NCBI GenBank assembly: GCA_963965975.1
Contig: OZ014416.1
Location: forward strand, 8,060,001-8,124,000
DNA: 64,000 nucleotides
Reading direction: 5' to 3'
From: Xestospongia bergquistia
Lineage: Eukaryota; Porifera; Demospongiae; Haplosclerida; Petrosiidae
This document shows, one piece after another, positions 26,192 to 64,000 of the stretch. The first letter of the stretch is position 1. Every line of letters begins with the position of its first letter. The position numbers and the translations under genes were made by a program. Below the pieces are notes generated by a model. The model was not told the DNA's origin. It saw nothing but the letters and a program-made list of their open reading frames with translations, and did not search any database.

Positions 26192-26753
26192 TTATATAGA
26201 TTGAGCACTCTCATTTTGTCTCACCTACAAAATTAGAAAATTAATTTGTAGTTTACATACTCAATAATATAATAAAGCCAATGTTATATCAACAATATAG
26301 AAATTAACAGTCAGTATACTAATATTGCAACTAAAGTTACTATTAGTGTCAAATTTAAATGTAGATCAATGTCGTGTAATAATATGAGGCTATTCTTAGC
26401 TAAGGGGTCCACTCCATGTACATGTATGTACATTAATGTGTGGAGAATGTAACTTACAATCGTTTCTAAATATTTTTCATACTCTTTTGCTTCATTATTC
26501 TGTCTAATAGCTCTTAAAGCAACTAATAAATTCCTCCTTGTTGCATTTTCAGCTTTCTCCATAATCCATAACTGATACATACTAGTATAATCACAACATC
26601 CAGCTAGTTTGACACTGTCTAGTTGTAGTGTTACACCTAACAGATTATAGTATGCAGTTCTAGCATGTGTAGTCACTTCTTGAATTGTAGGTTTTTGATC
26701 CAAGAGATCATCTGGTAAAGTAGATACATGTACACCTCCTTCAACCATATTAC
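26192..26753 (-). CDS. C-terminal Death domain and tail exons of the giant gene
   Basis: Exon 26458-26753 (phase 1 in, phase 0 out) encodes a helical domain of about 85 residues after a short acidic lead. It contains KPTIQEVTTHA, WIMEKAENATRRNLLVAL and NEAKEYEKYLETI, the helix pattern of a Death domain (six helices, with a basic patch in helix 5). The last exon 26192-26224 adds VRQNESAQSI and stops. A Death domain at the extreme C-terminus after ZU5-UPA is the arrangement in UNC5, PIDD and ankyrins, where it recruits partner Death domains. Domain identity is by pattern only. Confidence 0.7.
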
Positions 26754-29700
26754 CTAATATGGAAATGGAATAATATACAATTTAATATTGATTTAAGAAA
26801 ATGATTTTTTCTTTGTTAAACAATATAATAAGTGTAATTAAGTTGTTGATAGATTAACACATGTATAGATGACTTAACAAGTCAAACTGTTCAAAAAAAA
26901 CTGCCAAAATTTAAAATACAAAAAACAAACACAATATTCATAGTTGGGAGTGGCTATGAACAGGAAGTTTGTACTTTTGGATTTATTTTATTTAATATAG
27001 CTATATAATTGCTAAAAGAAAATTAGGTTAAAGTTTCAAGTATTCAAAGATTAAGTAGTCACAGTTTAGTATTAAGTAGTCACAGAAATGATTATACCTA
27101 AAAAAAATTTCAAAAATCATTATTGCTTTAATAAACCATAAAACAAACTGTCAACTATTATATGTACATGTAATTAGTCATCAGATTGCATCATTTGTGG
27201 TCAATAATGTTAGCTAAAATCTGTGTTTTGTGACAGGTATTGTCTATTGAGAGAATTGTCTATACTTATTGATGTTTTAGAGCACTGCATTTTCTAAAAT
27301 ATGTAAGAATTGAGCTGATTGTTATAAAATGAAAGGTAAGTAAGATAAGAGTCATGTATGCATATTTGTAGTAGTTACTATATCACACCTCTTCAATGAA
27401 AATGGTAGAATGTTAAATAGACTTCATTAAGTGTGTTAATAGCTTGTTATTATAAAAAGGAGGTTTACTAATAATTTAATTTGTTAGTCTAAGAAAATAA
27501 TCTCTAAATCTCAAGATATGGTCAACATACTTGTGTCTGGGAAAGTATACAAGATACAGGCCTATTCTTCTTTTGTAAAGGAACTTCTACAACAAAATGC
27601 ATTTGCATGTAAGTAAGCATACAATGTACATGGACATGACTTACCAACACTATATAACTGTATCATTATTATAAAATAGGTATATATATGTATACACAGT
27701 TATGTCTTGAGCCACATGTAAGTAGTTATAGATAGTTATGGCTTAAACAGAAGTGTCCTGTTGAACATTATAAGTCTTGGTCAAATTCTTAGATCTAAGG
27801 TGTTGTTAAGAAACTCTCTCCTATTAAAAAAGTTGAACATGCCTTTATTTTAATGGGGAAATCTACTCTACTGAATAAAACTGTACTTGTGTTTGCATTT
27901 TCTTGACCACTGTCTTATTGTGACTGGACATTTGAATCGTCTCATATCTGACAAACTAGAATCTTTCATTGTCTATCACCCTTCATCCTACACTCCTTGA
28001 TATTTTTCATCATACACTTATAATTGCATTCCTGAACATTGATAAGTGTATTACTGAATGCAGGCATACATATCACAAATTGGAATAAAATTCATTTGCT
28101 TTAAATTTGTTTCTAAAGCCTTGATGAGTTCTTTAATTGTGGTTTGTGCATATTATAAGTGTGGTCCTTTAGATATATATTTGTTATTATAATGACCTAC
28201 AAAACTTATATAACACAAACATTACTGAATTTACTGAAGGTACACATATATAATATATGTATTGTGGCTTAGAATTGAGAATCATAACAACCATAATAAA
28301 TTTGCCTTGTGCTTGAGCACTTAACTAATATCATTAATGACATTATTAGGAACGCTCAGAATAAGGTTATAATTTGGATACTACAAAAACAAGTAGTAAA
28401 CAAAAACTCACTTTGTAAATTACTGGCCAATGATCTAGTAATCACAATTTGAGGTCTATTGTCAGACGATGTTTGACTCTGAGTAACTTTAATACCTTCA
28501 ATTGTTATAGAATGTTTGAAATTATTTCTGAAATCACTCATTATAGGATTAGCAGATACTTTCACAGGAATATTAGGAGGATTAAAACTCAATGACTGAT
28601 TAAAGTCATCTACATCTTTCCTGTTAATCTATATCAGAGCAATTAAAATGTAAAAAATAGAGAACTTAAAGTACATGTAGCTTACAAATATTTTTCATAA
28701 ATACCACGTCCCCCCTCCCACACATGCACTCACTCACAAAACACATATCACTTACTACTAGTGGTCTACGTAGAGGTGTTATTTCCCACCCATGAACTGC
28801 TTCATCTGGGAATCCTAATAACTTTAAACTCTCTTCTCTTTCACCCTGTTCTGGTGATAAAGATACATTAGTAGCAAAACAAAATCGAAAGCTGTCTTCT
28901 TCGTCACCAAACTTGAATGTTAGTTTTAGAGTTACCTATATAAGAGAAATTAATGATTAAAATAATCATTTAAAGCATTGAACATTATTACATAAGAATA
29001 TATGGTATCTTGAACAACTGTGAATCGCATGTTCCATGTTTCCCTATTCTCTACTTTGTAGAAGATATAAGCTCGATAGTTGCAGTCAGGAACTTCTGTA
29101 TCTGTATAAATAGGTAATGTGTATAATTAATATGTTAGGTTTTAATTCAAAATTTACTTTATAACACAAAACATACAATTACTGACTTAACAGCACTGCT
29201 CTAAACATTTTATCTCATACATGTATTAGTGATAAGTATATACTTACTAGTTGCATAATGATATCCAATAGCACTGCCAACTGCACCTCCTAGAGCTACT
29301 CCTCCTAGACCAAATGTGGCACCACCAACTGCAGCACAAAGTACTATAGCTAGGAATGAAAATTCTTTGAGATGTATAATGCCATATCGTGAACCAGGAC
29401 AAAATGATCCTCCTGGTAAATATTCAAACTTGAAGGGTGGACCAGATTTAGCAACAACAAAACTGAGATATTCTGCTTGTTTCTCATCTGTAATATTAGC
29501 ACAATGTTCTAGTTGAACTTTAACTGGTTTAGTGAGTTGAGATGAACTAGATACTGATATATAGCACACTCCACTGATAAGTATGGTATTTTCAGGAAAT
29601 TCAAATTTGCCACCCCACAATCCATTAGCAGTAATTTCATATGAACCATCTACTACTTGTGCAGGTATTAAAATTTTTAGCCCACATTCTTCAACTGATA

Positions 29701-32700
29701 ATTGTTGATCTTCAGCAGCATTAAACTTGGAATAGTTCTTTCCTACTATTATCATTCCTTTAAATAGACCTGTGTAATAATAATTATACATATAGTCACA
29801 GTGATTATTTAATGACAACAACATATATCATAATAAGATTACCAATAATACCTTCTTTGAGTTGAGTTGATTGTTCCTTTACTAGTTGCAAATTTTCTAG
29901 CAAAAGATCTTTAGTTTCACTTTCTTTCATCACTCTTCCTGTAACTAATAATATACCAAATTAAGAGGATAAAAGATAATATATACAGTTACAATAATGT
30001 TAGCAACATGATCAGATTTGACTATTTACACAGCTCATATAGCCTTGATGAGTTCTTTAATTGTGGTTTGTGCATATTATAAGTGTGGTCCTTTAGATAT
30101 ATATTTGTTATTATAATGACCTACAAAACTTATATAACACAAACATTACTGAATTTACTGAAGGTACACATTTTCTTGACCACTGTCTTATTGTGACTGG
30201 ACATTTGAATCGTCTCATATCTGACAAACTAGAATCTTTCATTGTCTATCACCCTTCATCCTACACTCCTTGATATTTTTCATCATACACTTATAATTGC
30301 ATTCCTGAACATTGATAAGTGTATTACTGAATGCAGGCATACATATCACAAATTGGAATAAAATTCATTTGCTTTAAATTTGTTTCTAAAGCCTTGATGA
30401 GTTCTTTTATTGTGGTTTGTGCATATTATAAGTGTGGTCCTTTAGATATATATTTGTTATTATAATGACCTACAAAACTTATATAACACAAACATTACTG
30501 AATTTACTGAAGGTACACATATATAATATATGTATTGTGGCTTAGAATTGAGAATCATAACAACCATAATAAATTTGCCTTGTGCTTGAGCACTTAACTA
30601 ATATCATTAATGACATTATTAGGAACGCTCAGAATAAGGTTATAATTTGGATACTACAAAAACAAGTAGTAAACAAAAACTCACTTTGTAAATTACTGGC
30701 CAATGATCTAGTAATCACAATTTGAGGTCTATTGTCAGACGATGTTTGACTCTGAGTAACTTTAATACCTTCAATTGTTATAGAATGTTTGAAATTATTT
30801 CTGAAATCACTCATTATAGGATTAGCAGATACTTTCACAGGAATATTAGGAGGATTAAAACTCAATGACTGATTAAAGTCATCTACATCTTTCCTGTTAA
30901 TCTATATCAGAGCAATTAAAATGTAAAAAATAGAGAACTTAAAGTACATGTAGCTTACAAATATTTTTCATAAATACCACGTCCCCCCTCCCACACATGC
31001 ACTCACTCACAAAACACATATCACTTACTACTACTGGTCTACGTAGAGGTGTTATTTCCCACCCATGAACTGCTTCATCTGGGAATCCTAATAACTTTAA
31101 ACTCTCTTCTCTTTCACCCTGTTCTGGTGATAAAGATACATTAGTAGCAAAACAAAATCGAAAGCTGTCTTCTTCGTCACCAAACTTGAATGTTAGTTTT
31201 AGAGTTACCTATATAAGAGAAATTAATGATTAAAATAATCATTTAAAGCGTTGAACATTATTACATAAGAATATATGGTATCTTGAACAACTGTGAATCG
31301 CATGTTCCATGTTTCCCTATTCTCTACTTTGTAGAAGATATAAGCTCGATAGTTGCAGTCAGGAACTTCTGTATCTGTATAAATAGGTAATGTGTATAAT
31401 TAATATGTTAGGTTTTAATTCAAAATTTACTTTATAACACAAAACATACAATTACTGACTTAACAGCACTGCTCTAAACATTTTATCTCATACATGTATT
31501 AGTGATAAGTATATACTTACTAGTTGCATAATGATATCCAATAGCACTGCCAACTGCACCTCCTAGAGCTACTCCTCCTAGACCAAATGTGGCACCACCA
31601 ACTGCAGCACAAAGTACTATAGCTAGGAATGAAAATTCTTTGAGATGTATAATGCCATATTGTGAACCAGGACAAAATGATCCTCCTGGTAGGTATTCAA
31701 ACTTGAAGGGTGGACCAGATTTAGCAACAACAAAACTGAGATATTCTGCTTGTTTCTCATCTGTAATATTAGCACAATGTTCTAGTTGAACTTTAACTGG
31801 TTTAGTGAGTTGAGATGAACTAGATACTGATATATAGCACACTCCACTGATAAGTATGGTATTTTCAGGAAATTCAAATTTGCCACCCCACAATCCATTA
31901 GCAGTAATTTCATATGAACCATCTACTACTTGTGCAGGCATTAAAATTTTTAGCCCACATTCTTCAACAGATAACTGTTGATCTTCAGCAGCATTAAACT
32001 TGGAATACTTCTTTCCTACTATTACCATTCCTTTAAATAGACCTGTGTAATAATAATTATACATATAGTCATAGTGATTATTTAATAACAACAACATATA
32101 TCATAATAAGATTACCAATAATACCTTCTTTGAGTTGAGTTGATTGTTCCTTTACTAGTTGCAAATTTTCTAGCAAAAGATCTTTAGTTTCACTTTCTTT
32201 CATCATTATTGCTGTAACTAATAATATACCAAATTAAGAGGATAAAAGATAATATATACAGTTACAATAATGTTAGCAACATGATCAGATTTGACTATTT
32301 ACACAGCTCATATAATGTACAATATCAATTAATAATAGATTAGAGTCTAAGACCAAGGAAACTATAAAAAATTATAGTATCAATAATAGTCACTATATAT
32401 AAATATAGGCAATGACTTATTGGGATAACAATCTTCAAATTTAGTCAATAGCTTCCAACTATTTTTGAACTATAGTCAATTTAGCAAGATAACTACACAG
32501 ATATCTTTATTGGAGATAAGAAAGTTAATGAGTTATTTGAGGTAATTGAAAAACTAGTTATCAGTATCTAACTAATGAGATTACTTGAAGTCAAATATAT
32601 TACTCTGAAGTGTAAAAAGTAAGTGATTGATTTATTTTATTCATCAATGTATTTGATAGCAGTTATCAAATATATAATATAAAGGATTGTCCACACATAA

Positions 32701-35700
32701 GCATACAAAGTACAACATGTACTGCGCCATCCAAAATAATTCAGACAGAAGGTAAATCAACATTAAGTTGGAAATATCCATCACCACATTTACTAGAAAG
32801 CCCTTTCTCCAAGCCTTAACATAATTTTAGTTGTTGAAGTTAATTATGTTGTCTACAATGACTATTGTTTGTTATTTAAGAGTGTTTGAAAATTGTGTGA
32901 ATTATATGTACACTCAGACCAAATAAAGATGATCAGAGGCACTTTACATGCATGCAAACTAACTGCTTACATATATCATCACATTTTGTGATTATTCATA
33001 TCACAATTACTAAATAATCTCTACGTTGTGTGAGACAGCTACTTGCTGAAAGCAAAAATGAATTTGTTATTGTAACCCATTTGGCTAAGAAACAATTATA
33101 GACTGCCATGCCTGCATAATATTTAATTATTTACCTAGCACAGTCAGTCACTTACATAATTCGTAAACTTCTAAATATGATAACAAGCTTGTTTTTCTAA
33201 TACTATAGAATGGGATTTGCACAGTCTAATGTAACTAAGGTGTCGTGCTATTAGGTTTTTGTGAGTTAACAAATGCTGTCATGGGGTAAGCAGTCCTAAA
33301 TTAATGTTATTGGCTTTGATAACACTTTTGCTTCGAAGCATATAGAAGACTGGATACTAAGTAGGCAGAGTTAGCATAAGTTATTACATAAAAATAAACA
33401 CATTTTTCATTATTTAATTATATTACTTAATTATAACATCACAGTAGATTACTCAATTATGACATCATTCAAGACTCACTCATACAAACATTAATATTCT
33501 ATTATAATTATAGTGTTATATAATAAAATGTCTTACTTTCTAGTTGACTTTTCATTCTTGTACCAATGTCTTTTAACTCCTGGTTCTGCTTTAGAAGAAA
33601 GTCACAAAGAGCTTTTAAAAATTCAAGTCCTTTTTCTTCAACCTGTCGTTGTAGCTCATTAACTACTTTATTTGCTTTGTCATAATTATCACCACTCATA
33701 CTTTCTACATCTTTCTTAAAAATTAAAGATATCAATCTAGCAGTATAGAGCCGATTAACAATAGAAAGTGGTTTAACTTCAATGGCATCACAAATATCAG
33801 CAAAATAATCCAGAAATATTTCTGATGGATCAATAGTACCTACAGGATAAGTAAATAATTTAAAGAATAGTTAGTAGAAGAGAAGTAATGAATTAATATA
33901 TCTTAATTTGTCATGATCTCAGTAATCAAATATAACTCTAAATGGTCTATTTATTAATATATATAAACTACTTATATCAACAATAACAACATAGACTATA
34001 TAATAACTGTATATAAACACAATTGAAATCATCACATACATTATATGTAGTGTTTATTATTTAGATGTCTTATATTACCTTGTTGTGTAGTATTACTAGG
34101 GAGAGTATCTGCTTTGTGTTCACTTGATAATTCATTAGTAGAATGTTGCTATTAGATACAAGATATAAGTGATGATATATGAGGTATATAGTATTGTAGT
34201 TTTATAATACACAATATTGATGATGTATCTATTGTTTGTATTATTACTAAAACTAGAGGTAAGGAATTACAATGTAACTGTTAGTAGTAATCATTGTCAC
34301 ATAGTGAAACTATTAATCTATCATGTCAAACTTAGGAATCCTTCTAAGAACCCACAACCACAAAGAATGTTTCATGGGTGTGGCTGGTCAGTTGCATACC
34401 AGAAACCATTATCAAGAACATATCACTTCAACAAGTGAGATTTCTCATTTTGTCTGTGAATAGATCAGACATTCTTTCTGACATTAATCTAGTCTGACAT
34501 TAATCTAGTAAGTATCTGGAATGAGACTACACAGTTTACAAAAAGCAAATGATCTGATTAGCAAGAATAACTCCTAATTACTGAAAGAAGCCATTATGTT
34601 ACAGCTGACAAGACTAATTACTAAGTTATTATTGAATTGTTACTAATAACCCTGGCTTATTATAAAGTATAAACTCTATTGCTAGGATTTGTTTATAAAT
34701 TTTACTGTGTTAAAGTTCAGCTGGAAAACTTACTATCATAGCTATAAATTATCCATTAGTAATTTTATTTATTATAGTGACTTTATAATAGTGTCAGACA
34801 TTTTGAATTATATGTATATCCTAACACTGTTAACAAATCAAATTTGTTAATGACTATAATTAATACAATCTATTACACAAGTGTACAAATCATACCTGAT
34901 GTTCCATTGATAAGTTGTCAGTAATAGACCCTTGAGTTGAATCAACAGCACTTGATTCCATAGCATGTTCTATAGAATATTGAGTAGAACAAAGTGATAA
35001 TTATATTATAGGATAAATGTTGTAGTAAATGTTTGTGTCATATACTAATATGTATTGAAGTTGTCAACTGTAATGTTGAATCAGTTAATCACACTACTGA
35101 AGAGGAACTGATTACTGACCAATAAGCAAATTTTCAAGAATAAAGCAATTTACTATGGTAGAAGCTAATTATACACATTAGTATAGATTATATTAGTTTA
35201 TCAAACCTTGTTCCTGTGACACTTTGTTCAATAAATCCTTTACATTGGTATATAATCTATATTTGTTAAATTACACAAGTATATAGTATGTAACGGGAGC
35301 CATACTTTTGTATCAAATGCAGTAAATATGATTGTTTTAAAAGAAATATAATGAGTACTTCTCTATTGTATACATTATTCATGATCCATTGTGTAATCAT
35401 ACAAAGTTTAGTAACATGGATTTACCATCAGTTTGATCATCAATTGTGTTTTTGTCTGCTTGTGTTACACATCCTATAATAACAATATACAACAATTAAT
35501 TAAAGTATTTTAATATAACAGTAGCAGCTATTAAGGCAACATTATTATTATATTATAAACTATTACTTGTAAGCTATTCCTTAACTCGATGAACAGCTAA
35601 GTCATTGAAATTATAACTAAAGATACAAGTGTCCCTATATATTCAATTTCCTTTAAGATTATTAACTAATTAAGTATCATTATCATTTAATTCAAATCTA

Positions 35701-53700: not shown

Positions 53701-56700
53701 GCATTGGAGTTTAACAGTAGCTGTACGATATCACAGTAACCCCCTTTTGATGCTAAATGTAGAGATGTTTGCTGATCCTAGAGGAAGAACACAAGAGTTT
53801 ATTGTTGATTATAATAGCATTAATTATAGAATATATATACCAATAATAAAATAGATCACATATTAAAATTAAACATTATTAAAATTGTCTTAAGATGCTT
53901 TTGGATGTATTGGTATTGCAGTTGTTTTCTCTATTATTGAAAGCTGGAAGTTTCAAGTAGTTATCATAAAATAACAGAGAAGTCTTATAATTAATAGTTG
54001 AAGAGACTACATTTAAAGAAACACTTGATCTTCAAGTAGACATGCTCAGGTTGAATAATTGTGTTGATGGAAAGAGTAAATTAAATTCATTTGTTATGTT
54101 CAGTTAAATTTCATTCACCACTTTCAATATTCGAATATATCTAATAAAATAATGTATAAAAATAGACATTGACATTGTATACAAACAGTCCAAAACATAA
54201 CTGTTTAGTATGTAAAGTATGCTAGTGATAAAAATAATAACTACAACTATTGCAGATATATTTATTAATTTATAATTTACTTAAGTTTATTGATAAGAAA
54301 CAACTGATGATATTATATTAATACAAGTATTAGTATAACAATTGTAACATCTGCTCTGAAAGACATGAGTAATAATTTATTTTTGGATCATGGCTATCAT
54401 TATTATTAACTACATGATATACAGGACTTGTTTGGTTATTATTATGTAATGTCTTTTAAAATAAGATATAAATTTGGTTATGTAATTCCTACAAACTTCC
54501 TTGTTTTGATTTCTATACAATATATCATTACACATGACATGAAAACACAATAGACAATTAATGAAAACTAATATGTTGATATGTAGGGTTTTCCTCACAC
54601 AGTCATACGTTAGATTTAATAACAAATGTGACTTTGATCTCTATCTTTAGTATGTTCAAGATAAACTAAACTTTATCATTTATAATTAAATTTCTATATT
54701 TTTCAGGTTCTAACTTTGTCTTTCATCTTATTTACCTTAATACTGCTCTATACATCTTATATACATCTTTTAGTAGTTTTAAATATGTCTACTTTTACAT
54801 TTTCTAATAATACCTCTTAGTAATAACAAGATAACATCAAGTTTGTACTAGTTTTACAAATCTAGTGGTACTTCTGTTAATACCAGGATTCTTTTAAGGA
54901 TTATCTGCTATATTGTTAGTCTATAAACTAAATAGACTTCAAATGTTAGGTCCATAGAATTTAATAATAGAAATGTTCATGTCATTACATTCACTGATCA
55001 TGAATATTATTTACCATAAGACAAGATTATATCAATAAATACAAATCTATTAGTTTACAAATAAAATAATAGTCTTTTGATAAACTTGAATTTGACAAAA
55101 AGTTGTGTTAATAGTACAAGGTTAGTAGGAAGTTTGCTAAAATGTCAAATAGTCATATTAATTAAAGGTCTGGGATAAAAAATGTCTTGTCCATTAACAT
55201 TGTATGACAATGTCAATAAAGTAAAATAATAGAGAAGTATTATGGAAATAAGAAAAGAGATATTAAACTGTCTTCTAGATGAAACAATGAAAACAATGTC
55301 TACAACAGTGGGTGGGGCTAAATCTCTTAAGTGGCTGTAAATGATCTCCTTTGTTATAAAATATATTACTTTAAAAAGTAAACACTAACAAACAATAATA
55401 ATTTATTATTATTTAATTAGTGTACTAACCTTATTAAGATGACCATGATGAACATTGACATTAGCACCTGATGTAAGTGCTTGAGTTACAGCTTCTATAT
55501 TACCATTTTCAGCTGAAGTCAAAAGTAAGTCATCCTGTTAAAATAAATAATATATTATAACTGTGACATGTACCCACATATAATTAGGTCATGTTTATAA
55601 TATATCATAACATGTAAGATCACTATGTCCATGTCATCATATACAGTAAACATATTATTATATTTATCACTTACATTTCTAACTTGGTCTATATCTCTTG
55701 CTCCAAAAGAACATAAGATTTTAACAATGTTATCATGTTTATACCAGTGTGCTAAATAAAGTGGACTATGTCCCCACTATAAAATGAAAAAAAATTGTTT
55801 AATAATAACAATAGATTAAACTTGTTAAAGTGGACATATATAGTAATATATATACACAGATGATCCAAACAATCTTAGAACTGATCATGTTTATTTCAAG
55901 TAAGAACACATTAATATTTTATATATTATTTTACATATTAGGTTTATTATATTTTCCAGTTATATTAGTAATTGTTACCGTATAGCGGGTATTATTGGTG
56001 GCGAATTTAATTTGGCGTATTGGCGGTCTGCATCAAAATCGTCAAATCAAAAACCGTCAATAATTTTTCACGCCTCCCTGCACGTGATCCCCATCTGATA
56101 GCTGCTACGTAAATGGCGTTACTTAGATATTTCACGAAGAGAACTGTCCTGCCTAATGAAGAACAGTGCACATCCTTATCATGAAAAGCACTAAAAGAAG
56201 CCAACAAGAGAGTTGATATGTGTTTAAAGGAATCTTAGAAGGACAATGCAAGCGAAAATGGAGTAGCCAGCAGTCGCAGAGGTCAGTACAATGAATATAC
56301 ATCAGAGCAACGAGCACAGATTGGAAAATATTCGGCCGAAAATGGGCCTACTAGAGCTGCTAGGCATTTTTCTAAAGTACTGGGCATTGTTATTCCAGAG
56401 TCAACAGCAAGAAGGTTAAAAGCTGAATATTTGAAGAAGCTGGCAGATAATGACAATGCATCTGTCACAGTGAAAAGTTTGCCTACTAAACATAAAGGGA
56501 GGCCACTACTGCTTGGTCAAATCTTAGACACAGCCATACAAGACTACATTAAGGCACTGCGTACAATGGGAGGGGTGGTGAACACCAGTATTGTTATGGC
56601 TGCTGCAGAAGGAATAGTAGCTTCTCGTGATCGAAGTTTATTGATACAATATGGTGGACACATTCAAATCACAAAAACATGGGCTAAATCTCTACTTTCT

Positions 56701-59700
56701 AGGATGGGCTACGTTAAAAGAAAGTGCTCAAATGCAGGAAAAGTGTCAGTTCAACAATTCAAGGAGCTTCAAGGTGTTTTCTTAGCTGATATTCAGGCAG
56801 AGGTTGTGATGAATGACATTCCAAATGAAATGATTTTTAATTGGGACCAAACAGCTCTCCAGTTTGTTCCAACAGGTCAGTGGACCATGCATCATGCTGG
56901 AGAGAAGGTTATCCCCATTGCCAATAGCGATGACAAGCGTCAAGTCACAGCTGTTATTGCTGCTACTCTCACAGGTGAACTCTTGCCTCCTCAAATCATC
57001 TATAAAGGTAAAACAGGGCGGTGTCATCCAAAGTGCACTATTCCTAAAGATTGGGACATCTGGCACAGTGATAATCACTGGTCCACTGAAGATACCATGA
57101 AAAGGTACGTGGAGAAAATCCTTGTACCTTTCTTAATGAAAAACGAGCAGATTTAAAGCTCAATAGATGCCATCCTGCATTAGCAATTTTTGATTGTTTT
57201 CGTGGACAAACTACACCTGACTTCTATTCCCTACTAAATCAGTATAACATTATTCCAATTCTAATACCAGCAAATTGCACTGATAAACTACAGCCACTAG
57301 ATGTTTCCTTGAACAAGCCTCTTAAAGATGAAGTGAAGAAGAGATTCCAGGCTTGGTATGCTAATGAGATCCAAGAGCAACTTGAAACTGTTCCTGTTCA
57401 TGAAGTAAAAGTTGATGTCACAGCTAGTATTATCAAGGCAAAAAGTCTTGGCTGGTTTATTTCTGCTTTTGAAAGCATTCAAGCTAGACCTGAGATAATA
57501 GTCAATGGCTTTAGAGAAGCTGGCATTTTGGAAGCTGTCACCTCTGTTACGCAAGACTTATAGACTTCTTTTACACTTAAACATATTTACTGTTGTATAT
57601 TAAATCAACATATGATGTATTAATTACATTGTTTCAAATGATAAGGAAATGGTCAATGCATGTGTAACACAAGTATGTTCTAGAACTTTCTAACATTACC
57701 TATAGTCTGCATGGTCTCTACCGGGAATGATACAAGATGACTATCTTCAAAACAATTCAATAAATGCTCTCTCATGCATTGTTGTTTGTAGATGACAGAA
57801 CTTGGATCGCCACCATTAGCTAGCAATGTAGCTGTAGCTATAGCAAACACACCACAATCCTTTACACCAACCTGCTTTGGGCCTTCTTCCACCATGACCT
57901 TAATGCCTGCTCCAAAATGCTTTAAGATGACTTGTTGTGTTGTTGGGTCAACTGATGAATATAGAGAATCAAACACTTTTACTACACCTTGAGGACATCC
58001 AATTGTTGTTGCAACAATCCAATGATTCCCTCTACAGTGCATTATCTGCAAGGCACGGGAAGAAGTAATCGTAGTAGTAAGTGTAGGCAATAAAAAGGTG
58101 AATTGAAGTCCTGAAATATCACGATTTTGCTTTTTCAGAAGTCCTTGAGCAAAGTTCATGTGCTTGTCTGTCATCCAATTTCCAGAGGTAATGATCTCTT
58201 TATCCTCCAGAGTTAAGTCAATACAATCATAAGTTATCCACAGACCAGGACTCTTCTCCTCCTCAGTGACTATTTCATCTAGCTCTACAGAATCAAACTT
58301 TTTTTTCTTATGTGGCTGTTCTAATGTAGTTTCAGGTTCATAGACATAACGAGCCAGTAGATTTGATTTTTGCCACATTATCACTCACACCTCTAAATCT
58401 CAGGAGACAAGGAACATCTAGTCCTCCTTGTGGAAGGTCGATGGAATACTGCCTCTTTCCTGTAATAACACAACTTATGCTGCCATTTCTTTTAATGAAG
58501 AGATAGCAAGCAGCAGATATTTTTCTAGGGATATGGCCGACAACAATATTTTCCCTCAGTACAGCAACTGCATATTGATATTCTACATTACCTTCTTCAA
58601 TTTGACATTTCACCTCTTCGCCAAGTACGGGTCTCCAAACTCTTTTATGTATATGGTGACCTTGTACACAACTAGCAATCTCGTAAGTATCCATTGATCT
58701 ACTTTCACGAGAGTTCACGTGGCGTTATATAGTACCACCCACCTTTAATTACAACAATTATTTTAATAAATCACCAAATTTTAATTTTGCTTATTTTGAT
58801 GGCAAACCGTCAAATATTTTGACTGCCAATAATACCCGCTATACGGTATATATCAAACAACAAATGAAAGCTACTTTGTCCTATCCATACTTTATTGAAA
58901 ATTAATTACATTACATTGGCTTTGATCTATATCCTGTTGTACTATACAGGTAGTACTACATATATGTACATGTAGTAGAGATAATAAATGAAATATAAAT
59001 TATACACAATACATACTGACCTTGTTATAAATATTAGGATCTACATTTGACTGTAGTAGAAATTGGACTACCTCAGTGTGACCATTACGTGACGCTAAAT
59101 GTAAAGCTGTATTATCATCCTAATAATAAAACAATAAAGAATGTGAATGAAAATATCACTACTATAATTTTTAAAATACTACAGTAAGAGAATATAACTA
59201 AGTCTGATAATCAGTTACAGTATATAGCGAAGATATCACAGCAATGTTGAACATCATACTATAGAGTTAGTAACAGTTTAAAAATATATATGTGTACACA
59301 GATGAAGTAGTGACTTTGTCAATATCAGAATTAGTCATCTATTACAGAAATACAACAACATTGCTTATTGAGGTATATAGATATAGTAAGTTCATAATAT
59401 AGAAGTCAAATTATATATTGAACTGTGGATTCTTATTATGTACTGTGACTTTGAGTATCATACTTTGGTTTTCAATTGTTAGTATCTATACACAAACTAT
59501 TTCAATGTCCTAGTGTTTTCATCATTATATGATTACTATATTACAATGTTATGACATATACAGTATAGCTCATTAGGGTTTGAATATTTCATGACAAAAA
59601 TATCATTCAAAGCATTAAATCTTGTACATCTGACTTCTCTTGAAATATTGTTATATTAGTAACCATAGGTAATTTAGATGTGTTAAACACACCCCCAGAT

Positions 59701-62700
59701 AAGGCACATTGCTCCATGACATTACTCTTTGTCCATCAGAATTAAGGGGTAACTGTGTCTTATCAATGTGACCACAAGTTTATTAGAATAGCAATCTCTG
59801 TTACATGTTAATATATTCAGGATATAGAGAGGTTTAACATCTAGTGAGTAACACATATCAATGGATGACATAAGCTTATTCAACATCCATAATGTATGTT
59901 CTATCCTTCCTATTGTTACTATGAAGTACATGTAATGAAAATAACAAACTACAACTACCACAGATATATTAATTAATTTATAAATTTATATTAATTTATA
60001 ATAGTAGTATATAAATTATATGGACTACTATTATAACAGGCCACACCTACTAATACCTGACACTGACTATCTTTGTTAATCCTTTACTAACAAACATTTG
60101 AACAACAAGTCAATGTAGAAATTTCTAACAGCCACACCCATAACATTCTATATCTATTAAATACTGATTTAAATCTACTAACATGTAGTAATCTCTACAA
60201 ACAATATATTGATCACATGATAACTATAATTATTAAGCATGGACACCAAGATCATAGCAGAAGAAGGTAAGTTAGATTGCTGCAACTTGAGAATGAAGCA
60301 TTTTTAGAAAATTCCCACATCGAAAAAGTAGTTAATTTCATATTATTCCCACAAAAGTAATTTTTTGAGAGTGATAAACTCTACCATATTGCTTGCGCTT
60401 TGGAACAGACAGACAGACTGACAAAGCAACGTAACCCTTGCCCATAGAGTGAGTTATGAGTGTTAATAAGAGGTACATCTCACATTGTGAATATTGTTAG
60501 TGATAACCATTAATAATATTAATAATTGTGTCTTTACACTTAAACATACCAATAAACATAATTTATCTATTTATAATTGATATACTTTAAATTATCAATA
60601 GTATTTTATCATAGTAACAGTTGCTATGACAACAACTATTATAATAATGTCCATGTTGTTCAGTAATATCTATCAATTGATAACTTAATAAAATAAAATC
60701 AGTAAGAAATATGTACTATTATAACAGGCCACACCTACTGATAGCTCTCAATAACTATCCTTATTAATCCTTTACTAAAATAAAATTTAAAGGACAAATC
60801 AACATAAAAATTTCTAATAACCACACCCACTACTCCTTATATCTTACTTATAGTGATAGGTAATACCAATGTTAATTATTAGCCTCATAGCCAGGTGTTT
60901 AGTGATGAAAGGAATTTCTATACTTTATATTTATAAATTTAATCTCATGTAAACAGATCTATCAGTGACAGTCACTGATATAGGACATAGTCAAGTAGAA
61001 TTGAATCATTAATTCATGGAATATAATTTATCATTTTGTCCACATGTTAATGTACTTCCACTGGAAGCTGGTAATCTATTCAGAATATATGAAGTTACTA
61101 TTGATATGTACTGCTATTATAACAGGCCACACCTACTAATACCTGACACTGACTATCTTTGTTAATCCTTTACTAATAAAAATTTGAACAAAAAGTCGAT
61201 GTAGAAATTTATAACAGCCACACCTCTAACATTCTATATCTATTAAATACTGATTTAAATCTACTAACATCTAGTAGTCTCTACAAACAATATACACTGA
61301 CCACATCACAAATATTGGGATCTGCTTTGGAGTTTAACAGTAGTTGTACGATATCACAGTAACCCCCTCCTGATGCTAAATGTAGACATGTTTGCTGATC
61401 CTAGAGGAAGAACACAAGTATTTATTGTTGATTATAATAGCATTAATTATATAATATATACCAATAATAAAATGGATCACATATTAAAATTAAACATTAT
61501 AAAAATTGTCTTAAGATGCTTTTGGATGTATTGGTATTGCAGTTGTTTTCTCTATTATTGAAAGCTGGAAATTTCAAGTAGTTATCATAGAATTATAAAG
61601 AAGAATGTCTTACTACTGACTGTTCTTTCCTACACTCAAGGGTTTAAGCTTTAAATTTTTTGGTGCAAGTCTAATAACATTATAAAAGTATAGTATAATG
61701 CTGATGATATAAATGTACTACTATTATAACAGGCCACACCTACTAATACCTGACACTGACTAATCCTATATTAACAAAAATTTGAACAACAAGTCAATGT
61801 AGAAATTTATAACAGCCACACCCATAACATTCTATATCTATTAAATACTGATTTAAATCTACTAACATGTAGTAATCTCTACAAACAATATACACTGACC
61901 CTGTCACAAATATTGGGATCTGCATTGGAGTTTAACAGTAGCTGTACGATATCACAGTAACCTCCTTCTGATGCTAAATGTAGAGAAGTTTGCCGATCCT
62001 AGAGGAAGTACACAAGTATTTATTATTGATTATAATAGTATTAATTATAGAATATATACCAATAATAAAATGGATCACATATTAAAATTAAACATTATTA
62101 AAATTATCTTAAGATACTTTTGGATGTATTGGTATTGCAGTTGTTTTCTCTATTATTGAAAGCTGGAAATATCAACTAGTTATCATAAAATAATAGAGAA
62201 GTCTTATAATTAATAGTTGAAGAGACTACATTTAAAGAAACATTTTCTGTCTTCAGGTTAAATTACTTAACACTTGGTCTTCAAGTAGATATGTTCAGGT
62301 TGAATAATTGTGTTGATGGAAAGAGTAAATTAAATTCATTTGTTATGTTCAGTTAAATTTCATTCAACACTTTCAATATTCAAATATATCTATAAAATAA
62401 TGTATAAAAATAGACATTGACATTGTATACAAACACAGTCCAAAACATAACTGTCCAGTATGTAAAGTACGCTAATGAAAAAAATAACAACTACAACTAT
62501 TGCAGATATATTTAGTAATTTATAATTTATTTAAGTTTATTGATAAGAAACAACTGACGATATTATATTAATACAAGTATTAGTATAACAATTGTAACAT
62601 CTGCTCTGAAAGACATGAGTAATAATTTATTTTTGGATCATGGCTATCATTATTATTAACTACATGATATACAGGACTTGTTTGGTTATTATTATGTAAT

Positions 62701-64000
62701 GTCTTTTAAAATAAGATATAAATTTGGTTATGTAATTCCTACAAACTTCCTTGTTTTGATTTCTATACAATATATCATTACACATGACATGAAAACACAA
62801 TTGACAATTAATGTTAAACTAATATGTTGATATGTAGGGTTTTCCTCACACAGTCATACGTTAGATTTAATAACAAATGTGACTTTGATTTCTATCTTTA
62901 GTATGTTCAAGATAAACTAAACTTTATCATTTATAATTAAATTTCTATATTTTTCAGGTTCTAACTTTGTCTTTCATCTTATTTACCTTAATACTGCTCT
63001 ATACATCTTATATACATCTTTTAGTAGTTTTAAATATGTCTACTTTTACATTTTCTAACAACACCTCTTAGTAATAACAAGATAACACCAAGTTTGTACT
63101 AGTTTTACAAATCTAGTGGTACTTCTGTGAATACCAGGATTCTTTTAAGGATTACCTGCTATATTGTTAGTCTATAAACTAAATAGACTTCAAATGTTAG
63201 GTCCATAGAATTTAATAATAGAAATGTTCATATCATTTATTGGCCGACATTCACTGATCATGAATATCATTTACCATAAGACAACATTATATCAATAAAT
63301 ACAAATCTACTAGTTTATAAATAAAATAATAGTCTTTTGATAAACTTGAATTTGACAAAAAGTTGTATTAATAGTACAAGGTTAGTAGGAAGTTTGCTAA
63401 AATGTCAAAATAGTCATATTAATTAAAGGTCTGGGATAAAAAATGCGTTGTTCATTAACATTGTATGACAATGTCAATAAAGTAAAATAATAGAGAAGTA
63501 TTATGGAAATAAGAAAAGAGATATTAAACTGTCTTCAGATGAAACAATGAAAACAATGTCTACAACAGTGGGTGGAGCTAAATCTCTTAAGTGGCTGTAA
63601 ATGATCTCCTTTGTTATAAAATATATTACTTTAAAAAGTAAATACTAACAAACAATAATAATTAATTATTATTTAATTAGTGTACTAACCTTATCATACT
63701 GACCATGACGAACATTGACATTAGCACCTGATGTAATTGCTTGAGTTACATTTTCTATATCACCATTTTCAGCTGAAGTCAAAAGTAAGACATCCTGTTA
63801 AAATAAATAATATATTATAACTGTGACATGTACCCACATATAATTAGGTCATGTTTATAATATATCATAACATGTAAGATCACTATGTCCATATCATCAT
63901 ATACAATAAATATATTATTATATTTATCACTTACATTTCTAACTTGGTCTATATCTCTTGCTCCAAAAGAACATAAGATTTTAACAATGTTATCATGTTT
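26192..64000 (-). CDS. giant ankyrin-Roc-COR-Death-CARD-like-(ZU5-UPA)x2-Death protein (5' end outside window)
   Basis: Forty minus-strand exons join with matching phases into one frame of 7266 nt (2421 residues) ending at the TAA at 26192-26194. Order: ankyrin exons 64000-63935, 63794-63690, 61998-61900, 61400-61302, 59119-59021, 55776-55675, 55534-55430, 53777-53679, 49851-49750, 48714-48613, 46546-46445, 42405-42304; ankyrin plus Roc-COR 41368-39305; linkers 39240-39165, 39115-39050, 38918-38850; Death-like 38799-38485; linkers 38112-34079; CARD-like 33839-33537; two coil-ZU5-UPA sets 32211-30685 and 29938-28412; Death 26753-26458; tail 26224-26192. It resembles a mix of ROCO/DAPK, ankyrin, UNC5/PIDD and NLRP1/CARD8 parts, so it is probably a cytosolic scaffold or sensor that signals by Death-fold assembly. 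The joins at 39165 and after 38485 are the least certain. Two genes are possible, but nothing in the phases suggests a break. Confidence 0.8.
28412..29938 (-). CDS. second coil-ZU5-UPA module of the giant gene
   Basis: Exons 29852-29938 (short coiled coil with KESETKDLLLENLQLVKEQ), 29248-29769 (ZU5), 28992-29101, 28756-28935 (UPA, FRFCFATNVSLSPEQ) and 28412-28628. Phases 1-1-1-0-0-1 match the first module, so both can be spliced in series or used alternatively. The ZU5 exon has GLKILIPAQVVDGSYEIT, the usual ZU5 strand pattern, and ends with EFS followed by a glycine-zipper hydrophobic segment. It differs from the first copy by only a few residues. Confidence 0.75.
30685..32211 (-). CDS. first coil-ZU5-UPA module of the giant gene
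   Basis: Exons 32125-32211 (coiled coil), 31521-32042 (ZU5, about 174 residues), 31265-31374, 31029-31208 (UPA) and 30685-30901. The ZU5 exon shows GLKILMPAQVVDGSYEIT and GGKFEFPENTILISGV, then EFSFLAIV at about 31618-31638, the place where PIDD and NLRP1/CARD8 proteins cut themselves between Phe and Ser. Here the preceding residue is Glu rather than the usual His. Directly after comes GVALGGAVGSAIG (about 31535-31620 for the whole hydrophobic run), with Gly at every fourth position. The UPA exon has VTLKLTFKFGDEEDSFRF and GWEITPLRRP. Confidence 0.78.
33537..33839 (-). CDS. CARD-like helical domain exon of the giant gene
   Basis: A single exon (phase 1 to phase 1) encodes about 101 residues that read as an all-helical bundle: an N-terminal part with LSIVNRLYTARLISLIF, then NYDKANKVVNELQRQVEEKG and LEFLKALCDFLLKQNQELKD. 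The spacing of hydrophobic residues and the closing G-x-x-F-x-x-L-x-x-x-L pattern are those of a CARD. An unrelated helical coiled domain is the alternative. It lies just upstream of the ZU5-UPA modules. Confidence 0.5.
33890..38112. repeat. about 2.7-kb-spaced intragenic duplication in the linker region
   Basis: About 33890-35475 and 36810-38112 share exons and intron sequence in the same order, for example AGAATGTTTCATGGGTGTGG at about 34365 and 37255, and the exon pairs listed for the linker. Offsets vary from 2.6 to 2.9 kb because of later insertions and deletions. This duplication is older than the ZU5-UPA one. Confidence 0.75.
34079..38112 (-). CDS. low-complexity linker exons of the giant gene, with duplicated exon block
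   Basis: Ten small exons: 38065-38112, 37924-37977, 37621-37694, 36994-37063, 36283-36366, 36092-36142, 35728-35784, 35426-35473, 34896-34969 and 34079-34148. Phases are mostly 1. Three of them are repeated: 38065/35426 (QTDNNTFDNQTD versus QADKNTIDDQTD), 37621/34896 (SITDNLSMEHQ in both) and 36994/34079 (DTLPSNTTQQ in both). Exon 36283-36366 carries PAKRKRSFSHSTSKKLK, a classic bipartite nuclear-localisation pattern, and 36092-36142 carries another basic cluster, LKRKH. The rest is acidic, Ser/Thr/Asn/Gln-rich and presumably disordered. A further small exon near 38166-38220 is possible, but its acceptor does not fit the phase. Confidence 0.65.
38485..38799 (-). CDS. first Death-like domain exon of the giant gene
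   Basis: One exon, phase 1 in and out, 105 residues. It has the Death-domain skeleton: WRSIGEGLRVSYNVIKGLD, then RLSEIIQNWLDMNG, then TWITILDVVKGPLVQNKAHA and a final helix MTIYEYLKL. The pattern W-x-x-I/L-G-x-x-L, xxWL and TW-x-x-L-x-x-x-L matches Death domains found at the C-terminus of DAPK-type ROCO proteins. It lies two linkers after the COR region, where DAPK has its Death domain. Confidence 0.8.
38850..39240 (-). CDS. linker exons between COR and the first Death-like domain
   Basis: Exons 39165-39240, 39050-39115 and 38850-38918. The last two join cleanly in phase 1. The donor of the first is doubtful: GTTCTA at 39159-39164 keeps the phase, whereas the better-looking GTCAGT at 39148-39153 would break it. 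The protein is a short polar linker with no recognisable domain. Confidence 0.5.
39305..41368 (-). CDS. Roc GTPase and COR exon of the giant gene, led by a final ankyrin repeat
   Basis: One 2064-bp exon, phase 0 at both ends. It begins with an ankyrin repeat (NNLLHFACKSGNEETIHYLL), then a Roc domain: P-loop GKTKAGKSS (about 41099-41125), switch-2 DFAGH (about 40940-40954) and a G4-like SHVDEL (about 40735-40752), where the usual N/TKxD is replaced by HVDE. A COR region follows, with winged-helix phrases such as VLEFLTILGSKGLILFLANT. ROCO proteins bind GTP through Roc and dimerise through COR; this protein has no kinase in the visible part. The lack of a canonical NKxD could change nucleotide specificity or affinity. 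Confidence 0.85.
42304..49851 (-). CDS. proximal ankyrin-repeat exons of the giant gene (four exons)
   Basis: Exons 49750-49851, 48613-48714, 46445-46546 and 42304-42405 are each 102 bp, phase 0 to phase 0, encoding one 34-residue ankyrin repeat with TPAHLAAKKGHVDVLKLLIT or a close variant, and ending near ADINATD. They are near-identical paralogues. 46445-46546 has drifted most (TPARYAAEKGHV, QANKNATD). Because exons are symmetric, gain or loss of any one keeps the frame. Confidence 0.85.
44064..46040 (+). mobile_element. hAT-family transposon (BED finger, dimerisation domain), decayed
   Basis: 1977 bp bounded by terminal inverted repeats CAGACATGGGGCAAGCAC and its complement. An exact 8-bp target-site duplication CCTAAAAC lies at 44056-44063 and 46041-46048. 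The duplicated introns at about 41890 and 48205 still have the uninterrupted site. Both ends are packed with the subterminal motif AAGCACTT/AAGTGCTT (about 44080-44250 and 45880-46030), likely transposase binding sites. It sits in an intron of the giant gene, opposite to its transcription. Confidence 0.93.
44432..45829 (+). pseudogene. broken hAT transposase
   Basis: Pieces in order: a BED-type zinc finger (AKCKHCPKTISGSTKVTK, from the ATG at 44432, then a stop), the middle region with ATRWNSQLKMIKSIL around 44700-44750, an open frame at about 45136-45731 with DYILAAILDPCFKL, and the C-terminal dimerisation domain (IPASSAAVECLFSVAG, ending at 45829) in another frame. Stop codons after the BED finger and a frameshift near 45685 show it is inactive. 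Confidence 0.88.
48943..49325. mobile_element. 383-bp MITE, internal-deletion derivative of the pogo-like element at 55978-58846
   Basis: It begins CCGTATAGTGGGTATTATTG and ends with the complementary CCAATAATACCTGCTATACAG, flanked by TA on both sides. Its left about 220 bp match the left end of the large element (through CACGTGATCCCCATCTG and AATGAAGAACAGTG) and its right about 155 bp match the right end (CATTTAATTACAACAA, CAAATTTTAATTTTGC). The middle, with both genes, is missing. It interrupts the duplicated intron at GGC-TA-TGTTTGA, still intact in sister copies. Confidence 0.9.
50668..50690 (-). pseudogene. truncated ankyrin exon
   Basis: After a good minus-strand donor (50662-50667) the sequence matches the 3' end of the proximal ankyrin exons (ending DINAIDN) for about 22 bp, then homology stops. 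The rest of the exon and its acceptor are gone, so it cannot be used. Confidence 0.7.
50754..52455 (+). mobile_element. second hAT-type transposon (ZNF862-like), decayed
   Basis: Ends are CAGTGTACGAAATAAC on the left and the complement of CAGTGTATGAAATAAC on the right, starting with CAG as hAT repeats do. A direct repeat AAACTG flanks both ends; this is shorter than the usual 8 bp, so the duplication may have mutated. The interior carries a broken transposase. The neighbouring truncated ankyrin exon and the lost homology suggest a deletion accompanied or followed the insertion. Confidence 0.75.
50923..52273 (+). pseudogene. broken ZNF862-like hAT transposase
   Basis: Reading frames in order: TFVKWQQELDKEIQTVSWLE near 50975-51035, KWTERKYLLGCALFIDLLTP (51275 on), an open frame 51567-52090 with the dimerisation domain SLPASNAKLERIFLQVNNIK, and a tail with SLRKPYKKRSLELSSS in another frame, ending at 52273. 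An in-frame stop near 51114 and frameshifts near 51540 and 52080 break it. The combination is that of the hAT-derived ZNF862/KIAA0543 family. Confidence 0.8.
53679..64000 (-). CDS. distal ankyrin-repeat exons of the giant gene (eight exons seen)
   Basis: Exons 53679-53777, 55430-55534, 55675-55776, 59021-59119, 61302-61400, 61900-61998, 63690-63794 and 63935->64000, all phase 0 at both ends and 99, 102 or 105 bp long. Typical repeats are TALHLASRNGHTEVVQFLL (59021) and LHLASEGGYCDIVQLLLN (61900); 55675 reads SPLYLAHWYKHDNIVKILC. The last exon runs off the window edge, so more repeats and the start codon lie to the right. Confidence 0.85.
56239..57563 (+). pseudogene. pogo-like DDE transposase with a frameshift
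   Basis: An open frame from after a stop at 56236 to 57156 encodes a helix-turn-helix start (YTSEQRAQIGKYSAENGPTR), a second DNA-binding part (KTWAKSLLSRMGYVKRKCS) and the first catalytic Asp in IFNWDQTALQFVPTGQW. One base later the frame shifts near 57120-57150. The remaining frame reads on through the second catalytic Asp (AIFDCFRGQTTPD), the third (KLQPLDVSLNKPLKDEV) and stops at 57563. All three acidic residues are thus present but split by one frameshift. No ATG opens the first frame, so an upstream exon or a lost start is likely. Confidence 0.82.
57680..58718 (-). CDS. transposon-borne HIRAN-like plus Ulp1-like (C48) cysteine protease gene
   Basis: Two overlapping minus-strand frames. 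The first (58718-58338) has a HIRAN-like fold pattern with NIVVGHIPRKISAACYLF and ITGKRQYSIDLPQGGLDVPC. The second (58384-57680) is a Ulp1-type protease: His in RGNHWIVA (H121), Asp in VFDSLYSS (D139), the oxyanion Gln and catalytic Cys in KQVGVKDCGVF (Q171, C177). So the catalytic set is complete. The frames overlap by 47 bp, so one frameshift or an unrecognised small intron separates them. Ulp1-type enzymes remove SUMO or related tags; in a transposon it might protect transposase or modify chromatin. That role is inference. Confidence 0.75.

Follow-up and report, generated by a model that had tools for sequence, protein, structure and literature searches.

A giant sponge gene of a large, partly clustered Roco family probably joins ankyrin repeats, Roc-COR, Death-type domains and tandem ZU5 cassettes

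Introduction

Ankyrin-1, -2 and -3 combine ankyrin repeats with ZU5, UPA and Death domains, and the Roco proteins LRRK2 and DAPK1 are medically important. According to the available text of PMC6320773, DAPK1, a member of Roco group 3, is built of a kinase, ankyrin repeats, Roc-COR and a Death domain. Trichoplax has at least 17 ROCO genes, in which Roc-COR is accompanied by CARD, death and other domains (PMC4104024, available text). In brown algae, 9 to 47 ROCO genes were counted, and exon-shuffled LRR-ROCO families were proposed as immune receptors (PMC11378527, available text). In Amphimedon, 357 Death/TRADD-N proteins were described, often with ankyrin repeats (PMC8195603, available text).

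The giant gene described here lies on the minus strand of the window, a stretch of 64,000 nucleotides (C6:8060001-8124000) from a 146-Mb sponge genome in 21 contigs. It resembles ankyrin-1, -2 and -3 in having ankyrin repeats, ZU5, a UPA position and Death, but Roc-COR, a Death domain and a CARD-like exon sit between its ankyrin repeats and ZU5. As in DAPK1, ankyrin repeats are followed by Roc-COR and then Death (PMC6320773, in part); DAPK1, however, has an N-terminal kinase, whereas a Pfam scan of two N-terminal coding exons of the giant gene revealed no protein kinase, and a CARD-like exon, ZU5 and a second Death domain are added. Trichoplax, likewise an early animal, also places Roc-COR amid CARD and death domains (PMC4104024, in part), but has fewer genes, and ZU5 and ankyrin are unmentioned in the main text of that article. 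A large family, one repeat per exon and same-phase exon shuffling are shared with the brown-algal genes, which differ in their LRR repeats, their simple LRR-ROC-COR layout and their mostly dispersed positions (PMC11378527, in part); the sponge genes have ankyrin repeats and animal death modules, with many copies on one contig. PIDD, UNC5 and CARD8/NLRP1 have in common with the giant gene ZU5, a region at the UPA position and Death, together with an F-S at the CARD8 cleavage place (PMC3210808, available text). In the sponge gene, by contrast, ankyrin, Roc-COR and Death precede ZU5, a glycine zipper lies between ZU5 and the UPA position, the cassette occurs twice in tandem, and a counterpart of CARD8 His-270 at the same spacing is lacking. 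The Amphimedon proteins are similar in their N-terminal Death-like domains, often followed by ankyrin repeats, and in their great module diversity; the available text of PMC8195603 does not mention Roc-COR, and the TRADD-N profile is unmatched here.

A limited literature search returned no report of Roc-COR, ankyrin repeats, a death domain and ZU5 together. Roc-COR joined to ZU5 is also absent from the available portions of PMC6320773, PMC4104024, PMC11378527 and PMC8195603, and proteins of this kind may already exist in unpublished or automatic annotation. We consider it reasonably likely that the gene encodes one Roco scaffold of ~3,080 residues, comprising an N-terminal Death unit, 16 ankyrin exons, Roc-COR, Death, a CARD-like exon, two ZU5-zipper-UPA cassettes and a last Death domain, and that it would work in the way proposed below.

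Gene structure

Starting with the last ankyrin exon and ending at the stop codon (42405 to 26192, minus strand), 29 exons with AG/GT borders and agreeing phases encode a product of 2065 residues without internal stop. Eleven further ankyrin exons with candidate AG/GT borders and phase 0-0 lie upstream, ten of them within the window and one truncated at the window edge (64036); the exon at 63794 has an uncertain 3' border. These two sets add up to the forty exons of the initial annotation, which had joined them in one frame with a phase conflict at two linker joins. A fully phase-consistent path does exist. The large exons of this path were placed by homology. The ten short ones between the first Death domain (Death1) and the CARD-like exon were partly picked for fit, only some of them recur in paralogs, and linkers lkD, lkE and lkH to lkK are unmatched in the paralogs L031 and L032.

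The initial annotation covered 26192 to 64000, with 2421 predicted residues; position 64000 is only the window edge. In numbering continued past this edge (extended coordinates, >64000, into stretches L009 to L012), an ATG exon, a Death-domain exon, two linkers and four ankyrin exons form one open frame of 653 residues. The gene starts near extended position 70053, outside the window, and opens with a Death-containing unit. It is a real gene and larger than first described: the whole model has ~3,080 residues over ~44 kb and 16 ankyrin exons, the eleven middle ankyrin exons being included in it by their candidate borders.

The 5' end could also be shorter, the Death-containing N-terminal unit (extended 70053-67785) being a separate gene and the ankyrin-Roc gene starting later. 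Matches to the N-terminal Death exon on C6 were found only at 8128486, 8440344 and 8459296, so that the other Roc places of this contig have no recognisable one. Moreover, reading through after linker lk2 hits a stop (GVRNKS*), and the join of the first two coding exons is the weakest in the model because it needs a second-choice donor. On the other hand, everything from the ATG through the fourth ankyrin exon is in frame, and in L013 ankyrin exons lie behind a related unit, in the same orientation. We therefore regard a shorter 5' end as somewhat unlikely and keep the start near 70053.

The ankyrin assignment is certain. The edge-cut exon at 64036 ends one block (GARDIDQ) and the exon at 63794 opens the next (LLLTSAENG); both (63714..64000) were recognized by an ankyrin HMM and have candidate phase-0 borders. 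The same pair is present in paralog L034, which is located upstream of L031 and has the same ankyrin order as the giant gene. Two exons at 61998 and 61400 (61303..61998; ankyrin HMM E 1.3e-19 and 9e-19, AG/GT, phase 0-0) are followed by four at 59119, 55776, 55534 and 53777 (53680..59119). Among the window exons scanned with Pfam, 59003-59119 (Ank, 43.6 bits) was the sole one above its cut-off. The block 53680..59119 is a duplicate of the 60-65 kb region and carries a transposon in its introns. Four second-type ankyrin exons (49851, 48714, 46546 and 42405; 42304..49851) were likewise recognized by the ankyrin HMM, with AG/GT borders and phase 0-0. An Rfam scan (gathering threshold) and a tRNA scan found nothing in the window, and PADLOC and NCBIfam scans gave weak, unrelated matches only.

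Domain composition

The initial annotation had suggested a Pfam search for Roc, COR, Death, CARD, ZU5 and UPA. This search bore out Roc, ZU5 and Death, directly or via paralogs, gave weak evidence for COR, and provided no profile support for CARD or UPA. In the window copy itself, the scores were all below the Pfam cut-offs, given in brackets: Roc 19.5 (27), Death1 16.8 (22.6), ZU5 16.4 (21) and the last Death domain (Death2) 14.8 bits (22.6).

One exon (39305..41368), an open frame of 718 codons, encodes a partial last ankyrin repeat, the Roc GTPase and a presumed COR. Roc contains a P-loop (GKTKAGKSS), a DxxG motif (DFAGH) and a base-recognition motif (SHVD, within GSHVD), and residues G82, G87-S90, D139, G142, H143, S207 and D210 are invariant in nine of nine aligned members. 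Pfam Roc matched all nine family members at E up to 0.1 (best 4.9e-06), and Roc aligned to that of LRRK2 (E 0.0015). The ~460 residues after Roc are alignable in nine members. A COR is expected there, since neither Roc nor COR is found alone and the two go together (PMC6320773, available text). COR-B matched weakly in one of the nine family members (E 0.0049); the window copy has no COR profile match and is absent among the 150 COR-A places listed. We thus assign COR to this exon tentatively.

The dN/dS of Roc-COR was 0.34 and 0.38, which indicates purifying selection and supports a working Roc-COR. These values bear on the view that the gene is a decaying or non-functional member, namely a mosaic assembled by duplication, in which the open frames are only recent remains. 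Such decay would fit the tandem and segmental duplications along the whole gene, the transposon pieces in introns, the partial neighbouring copy and the matches interrupted by one or more stops in 29 of the 62 Roc rows used, but it is contradicted by the Roc-COR dN/dS, by the conserved GTPase motifs and by the 2065- and 653-residue parts, both free of stops. Decay is therefore very unlikely in our judgement, and we retain the reading as a scaffold. Constraint on other parts is left undecided by their dN/dS, which was 0.67 and 0.88 for ZU5 (few changes), 0.53 and 1.14 for Death2 and 0.89 and 0.29 for the CARD-like exon. For L031, the dN/dS calculation used a Death1 end at 2387; the exon actually ends three bases earlier, at 2384.

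Three short linker exons (38850..39240), all present in L031 and L032, lead to Death1 (38485..38799). A Death match was obtained in 9 of 11 family members, and 11 of the 13 PDB matches of the family profile were FADD (best E 0.0029); by profile comparison, Death1 is FADD-like. For Death2 (26458..26753), paralog L032 reaches 24.8 bits, above the cut-off of 22.6, and the last exon with the stop codon (26192..26224) has a match in L033. At the other end of the gene, the Death domain of the N-terminal exon scores 38.4 bits, above cut-off, and is the sole significant Pfam match of that exon. TRADD-N was considered for the N-terminal unit because of the domain order given in PMC8195603, and was rejected: genome-wide, PF20694 matched twice (E ~0.03), both times outside this exon family.

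Between Death1 and the CARD-like exon, the ten short linker exons (34079..38112) are internally repeated and probably disordered. Their paralog matches are partial, with the types lkF/lkL and lkG/lkM in L031, L032 and L033, lkD/lkK in L033 and the other linkers unmatched. The CARD-like exon (33537..33839), of unproven family, has at least 150 matches in the genome and shows 18% identity to the gene's own N-terminal domain. No CARD profile match was obtained in the window copy; one of nine members matched at E 0.12, and none of the eight PDB matches of the exon was a CARD. The name CARD-like, which the initial annotation had introduced, is thus kept here as a label without profile support.

Family size, paralogs and module adjacency

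The giant gene belongs to a Roco (Roc-COR) family that is very large and partly clustered. Its own subfamily gave 66 Roc-COR matches in the genome, made up of 58 near-full-length places and four partial places with two rows each, and at least 150 COR-A matches were listed, 100 of them above cut-off on their own score; these numbers are exon/profile matches, not curated genes, and some may not be intact. On contigs with Roc matches, none of the COR-A matches lies within 5 kb of a Roc place. The genome searches scored the best candidates, and the totals of ~150 rows for the CARD-like, ZU5, Death1 and Death2 modules are lower bounds. Within 4 kb downstream, COR-A clusters favour different modules: ZU5 at C2:5.13-5.26 Mb (6 of 7) and C3:0.41-0.45 Mb (3 of 3), the CARD-like exon at C11:6.37-6.47 Mb (6 of 13) and Death1 at C12:5.39-5.46 Mb (4 of 9). 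On C13, near-identical full Roc-COR-Death2 blocks lie ~0.2 Mb apart at 3411460, 3632916, 3822674 and 4032956, each near a partial reverse-strand Roc fragment.

Two paralogs, L031 on C6 and L032 on C13, each matched 14 exons in the same order and on the same strand, with AG/GT kept. Length differences in L031 were +3 (Roc-COR, cut by the stretch end) and -6 (Death1), and those in L032 were +3 (Roc-COR), -9 (lkB), +3 (lkC) and +12 (ZU5). All are multiples of three, save the end of L032 Death2, which is not conserved: a GTAAGT donor makes the exon four bases shorter, and reading on in frame meets TAA at once, so that L032 may simply end there. Since the exons recur in order with the frame kept in two paralogs, Roc-COR and everything after it, through the last Death domain, very probably belong to one gene, and the giant gene as a whole is probably a single, very large one. 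The order ankyrin, Roc(-COR), Death, CARD-like, ZU5, (UPA), Death proved to be as first described, and the paralogs confirm most of the joins from Roc-COR to the last Death. Over this part, the earlier claim of one protein is well supported by paralog exon order. A third paralog, L033, is decayed: its ZU5 is missing. We considered a direct splice from CARD-like to Death2 in L033 and discarded it, as its CARD-like exon runs into a stop codon and the coil exon survives as a remnant; ZU5 was probably deleted there.

Module order around the Roc places was then counted for 62 of the 66 Roc rows (four short second pieces on C13 were dropped, and four of the 62 are partial). Within 16 kb downstream on the same strand, and with hand-picked module rows (17 of 151 ZU5, 71 of 150 CARD-like, 12 of 150 Death2 and 44 of 150 Death1), 47 of the 62 places had at least one tested module (Death, CARD-like or ZU5), and 25 had exactly Death1 then CARD-like. 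Roc-COR, Death1, CARD-like, ZU5 and Death2 followed each other in this order and strand at six places including the window. The six include four near-identical copies on C13; the independent places are therefore the window, C6:7.245 Mb and C13. The initial annotation knew of no protein with all these parts together; the layout is not unique, as Roc-COR, Death, CARD-like, ZU5 and Death occur at five other Roc places. At these five places (four being the near-identical C13 copies), ZU5 lies ~4 kb after Roc-COR, and at two C7 places Death1 and CARD-like are accompanied by a distant ZU5 (36% identity).

Within 10 kb on the same strand, using 22 ZU5, 101 CARD-like, 33 Death2 and 75 Death1 rows from contigs with Roc matches, the downstream versus upstream counts at the 62 places were 45 versus 0 for CARD-like, 37 versus 0 for Death1, 11 versus 0 for Death2 and 8 versus 0 for ZU5. 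On the opposite strand, CARD-like, Death1, Death2 and ZU5 were found downstream in 5, 4, 4 and 4 cases and upstream in 1, 0, 0 and 0; four opposite-strand cases are taken to be inverted partial Roc copies on C13.

We performed a similar count within 4 kb of 149 of the 150 COR-A rows, which represent other Roc subfamilies (a second piece was dropped), with 147 ZU5, 75 CARD-like, 134 Death2 and 110 Death1 rows, leaving out the C6 CARD-like rows, nearly all C6 Death1 rows and some partial or distant rows. ZU5 was found downstream on the same strand at 10 of the 149 places, at 1.1-2.8 kb, and neither upstream nor on the opposite one at any of them; at nine of these 10 places it starts 1.1-1.5 kb after the COR-A start. 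Death2, CARD-like and Death1 each lie behind COR-A in 8 of the 149 (same strand), with 1, 3 and 2 cases upstream and none on the other strand. Because ZU5 is near Roc-COR at five places and also lies behind COR-A, a gene boundary between COR and ZU5 is unlikely. Among 46 zipper-type ZU5 rows, selected on their identity and on where the match ends in the query and compared with parts of the lists of the other modules, Death2 was downstream in 16 and upstream in one; CARD-like was found 8 times downstream and 8 times upstream, and Death1 3 times on either side.

These counts can also be held against a reading as at least two neighbouring genes, in which an ankyrin-Roc-COR-Death gene stops within the linker/CARD-like region and ZU5-UPA-Death forms a gene of its own. 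In the window, ~5.4 kb separate Roc-COR and CARD-like; most Roc places have no ZU5 or Death2 downstream (ZU5 in 8 of 62, Death2 in 12 of 62, Death1-CARD only in 25 of 62); and ZU5-Death2 pairs occur on C4, a contig without a match in the Roc-COR search of this subfamily. The partial second copy at extended 75-94 kb is without the Roc-Death1 and ZU5-Death2 blocks, and the ZU5 cassette has a separate, younger history (dS 0.05-0.06 versus 0.19-0.26 in Roc-COR). A split is nevertheless opposed by the phase-1 joins and the coil exon, kept in two paralogs, by the distance of only ~4 kb from Roc-COR to ZU5 in the paralogs, and by the narrow spacing of ZU5 behind COR-A, on the same strand only, at nine of ten places. 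Two separate genes are thus very unlikely, and a single gene remains our preferred reading.

The ZU5-zipper-UPA cassette

The initial annotation had listed a single ZU5-UPA, but the cassette is doubled in tandem. Two units (27896-30041 and 30169-32314) are 99.25% identical over 2146 bp, with 16 differences, and the region 27896-32314 is a 2.27-kb tandem duplication of the coil-ZU5-UPA cassette, introns included. Copy a consists of a short exon before ZU5 (32125..32217; in the 29-exon model and in paralogs), ZU5 with an EF/S motif and then a glycine zipper (31521..32042; profile and paralogs), and three exons at the UPA position (30685..31374). Copy b (28412..29944) is near-identical and in frame. 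The duplication could be a recent event or an assembly artefact. Each cassette begins and ends in phase 1, so that its gain or loss preserves the frame. Synonymous divergence from the paralogs is far lower in ZU5 than in Roc-COR, and the cassette was thus probably exchanged or converted recently. Paralog L032 scores 22.8 bits for ZU5, above the Pfam cut-off of 21, and the best PDB match of the ZU5 profile is the ZU5 of ZO-1 (E 0.05). The three exons at the UPA position are kept in L031 and L032; Pfam UPA and a PDB profile comparison gave nothing relevant for them, and the UPA identity asserted earlier is putative.

CARD8 is cut at F296/S297 (PMC3210808, available text), and the EF/S motif lies at the end of the sponge ZU5, at the place of this cleavage. 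F-S is kept in 13 of 17 distinct readable ZU5s, which include several close relatives; F-C takes its place in two, and the other two differ. Compared with the motif given in the available text of PMC3210808, the residue before F is E here, H in PIDD and S in CARD8. A likely counterpart of CARD8 His-252 is present (LEHCAN), and there is no His at the His-270 spacing, both read by eye.

Directly behind the F-S strand, both copies (31521-32042 and 29248-29769) carry a hydrophobic glycine-zipper segment, GVALGGAVGSAIG, with the pattern GxxxGxxxGxxxG. It is the most hydrophobic segment of the 2065-residue product. Its GxxxGxxxG count was reached in 1 of 2000 shuffles, a control that is flattering because the cassette is present twice. 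The segment is unchanged in L031 and kept in L032 with a Glu inside. The ZU5 of L027 (65% identity) has a different, equally zipper-like segment, with a stop codon shortly before it. No zipper segment was seen in the distant ZU5s examined; ZU5 matches of at most 45% identity end at query residues 133-152, and the zipper lies at ~145-170. A limited literature search found no report joining a glycine zipper to ZU5. Neither this ZU5-zipper cassette nor the family's size, the most interesting aspects of the gene, featured in the initial annotation.

Proposed function and significance

From this gene structure, with its motifs, family expansion and module shuffling, we infer a ligand, a switch, an inhibition and an output. 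The scaffold would presumably be cytosolic. Its fast-duplicating ankyrin array, with one repeat per exon, may bind a ligand or a guard partner, and the Roc GTPase would act as a GTP-driven dimerisation switch. The ZU5-UPA modules could restrain the C-terminal Death domain, by analogy with PIDD, UNC5 and CARD8/NLRP1. Upon release, the Death-type domains might nucleate a platform that signals cell death or defence, consistent with the notion of an innate sensor or cell-death scaffold. The scaffold reading has precedents in the brown-algal ROCO families proposed as immune receptors (PMC11378527, in part) and in Trichoplax, whose ROCO proteins carry CARD and death domains (PMC4104024, in part).

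A bolder proposal, which we think unlikely, is that the genome holds an NLR-like immune repertoire built on Roco GTPases, with ~200 Roc-COR genes, ankyrin sensors of one repeat per exon and swappable phase-1 outputs (Death, CARD-like, ZU5). In the subfamily of the giant gene, ZU5 would cut itself at F/S, and the resulting fragment, with a leading glycine zipper before the UPA region and Death, could insert into a membrane or oligomerise, acting as a GTPase-gated, self-cleaving death executioner. Under the preferred scaffold reading, a family of this size that couples Roc-COR to Death and ZU5 would provide material for asking if Roc-COR began as a switch between sensor and death platform, parallel to NACHT in NLRs. 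The 66 plus at least 150 exon/profile matches of this genome compare with 47 ROCO genes, the highest brown-algal count in the available text of PMC11378527. Its cassettes in phase 1 and ankyrin exons in phase 0 are a clear example of exon shuffling that diversifies possible innate receptors.

Genomic neighbourhood

A patatin-like phospholipase gene region with an ankyrin-like frame is located on the plus strand at 20692-25186, convergent with the giant gene; a 95.8% copy at extended 70494-74966 is divergent from the giant gene's start. Beside this copied patatin gene, a partial second copy of the giant gene was found at extended 75245-93625 (L010, L011), with ankyrin exons, linkers and the CARD-like exon (97%). 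The introns contain pieces of hAT-type (two, just below the Pfam cut-off) and DDE_1-type transposases on the plus strand (45099-45731, 51116-52223 and 56239-57563). On the minus strand, an intron holds an Ulp1-type peptidase frame beside a weakly HIRAN-like frame (57680-58724), adjoining the DDE_1 element; both frames are probably mobile-element cargo. A tandem array with a 58-base period was observed at 9686-10804.
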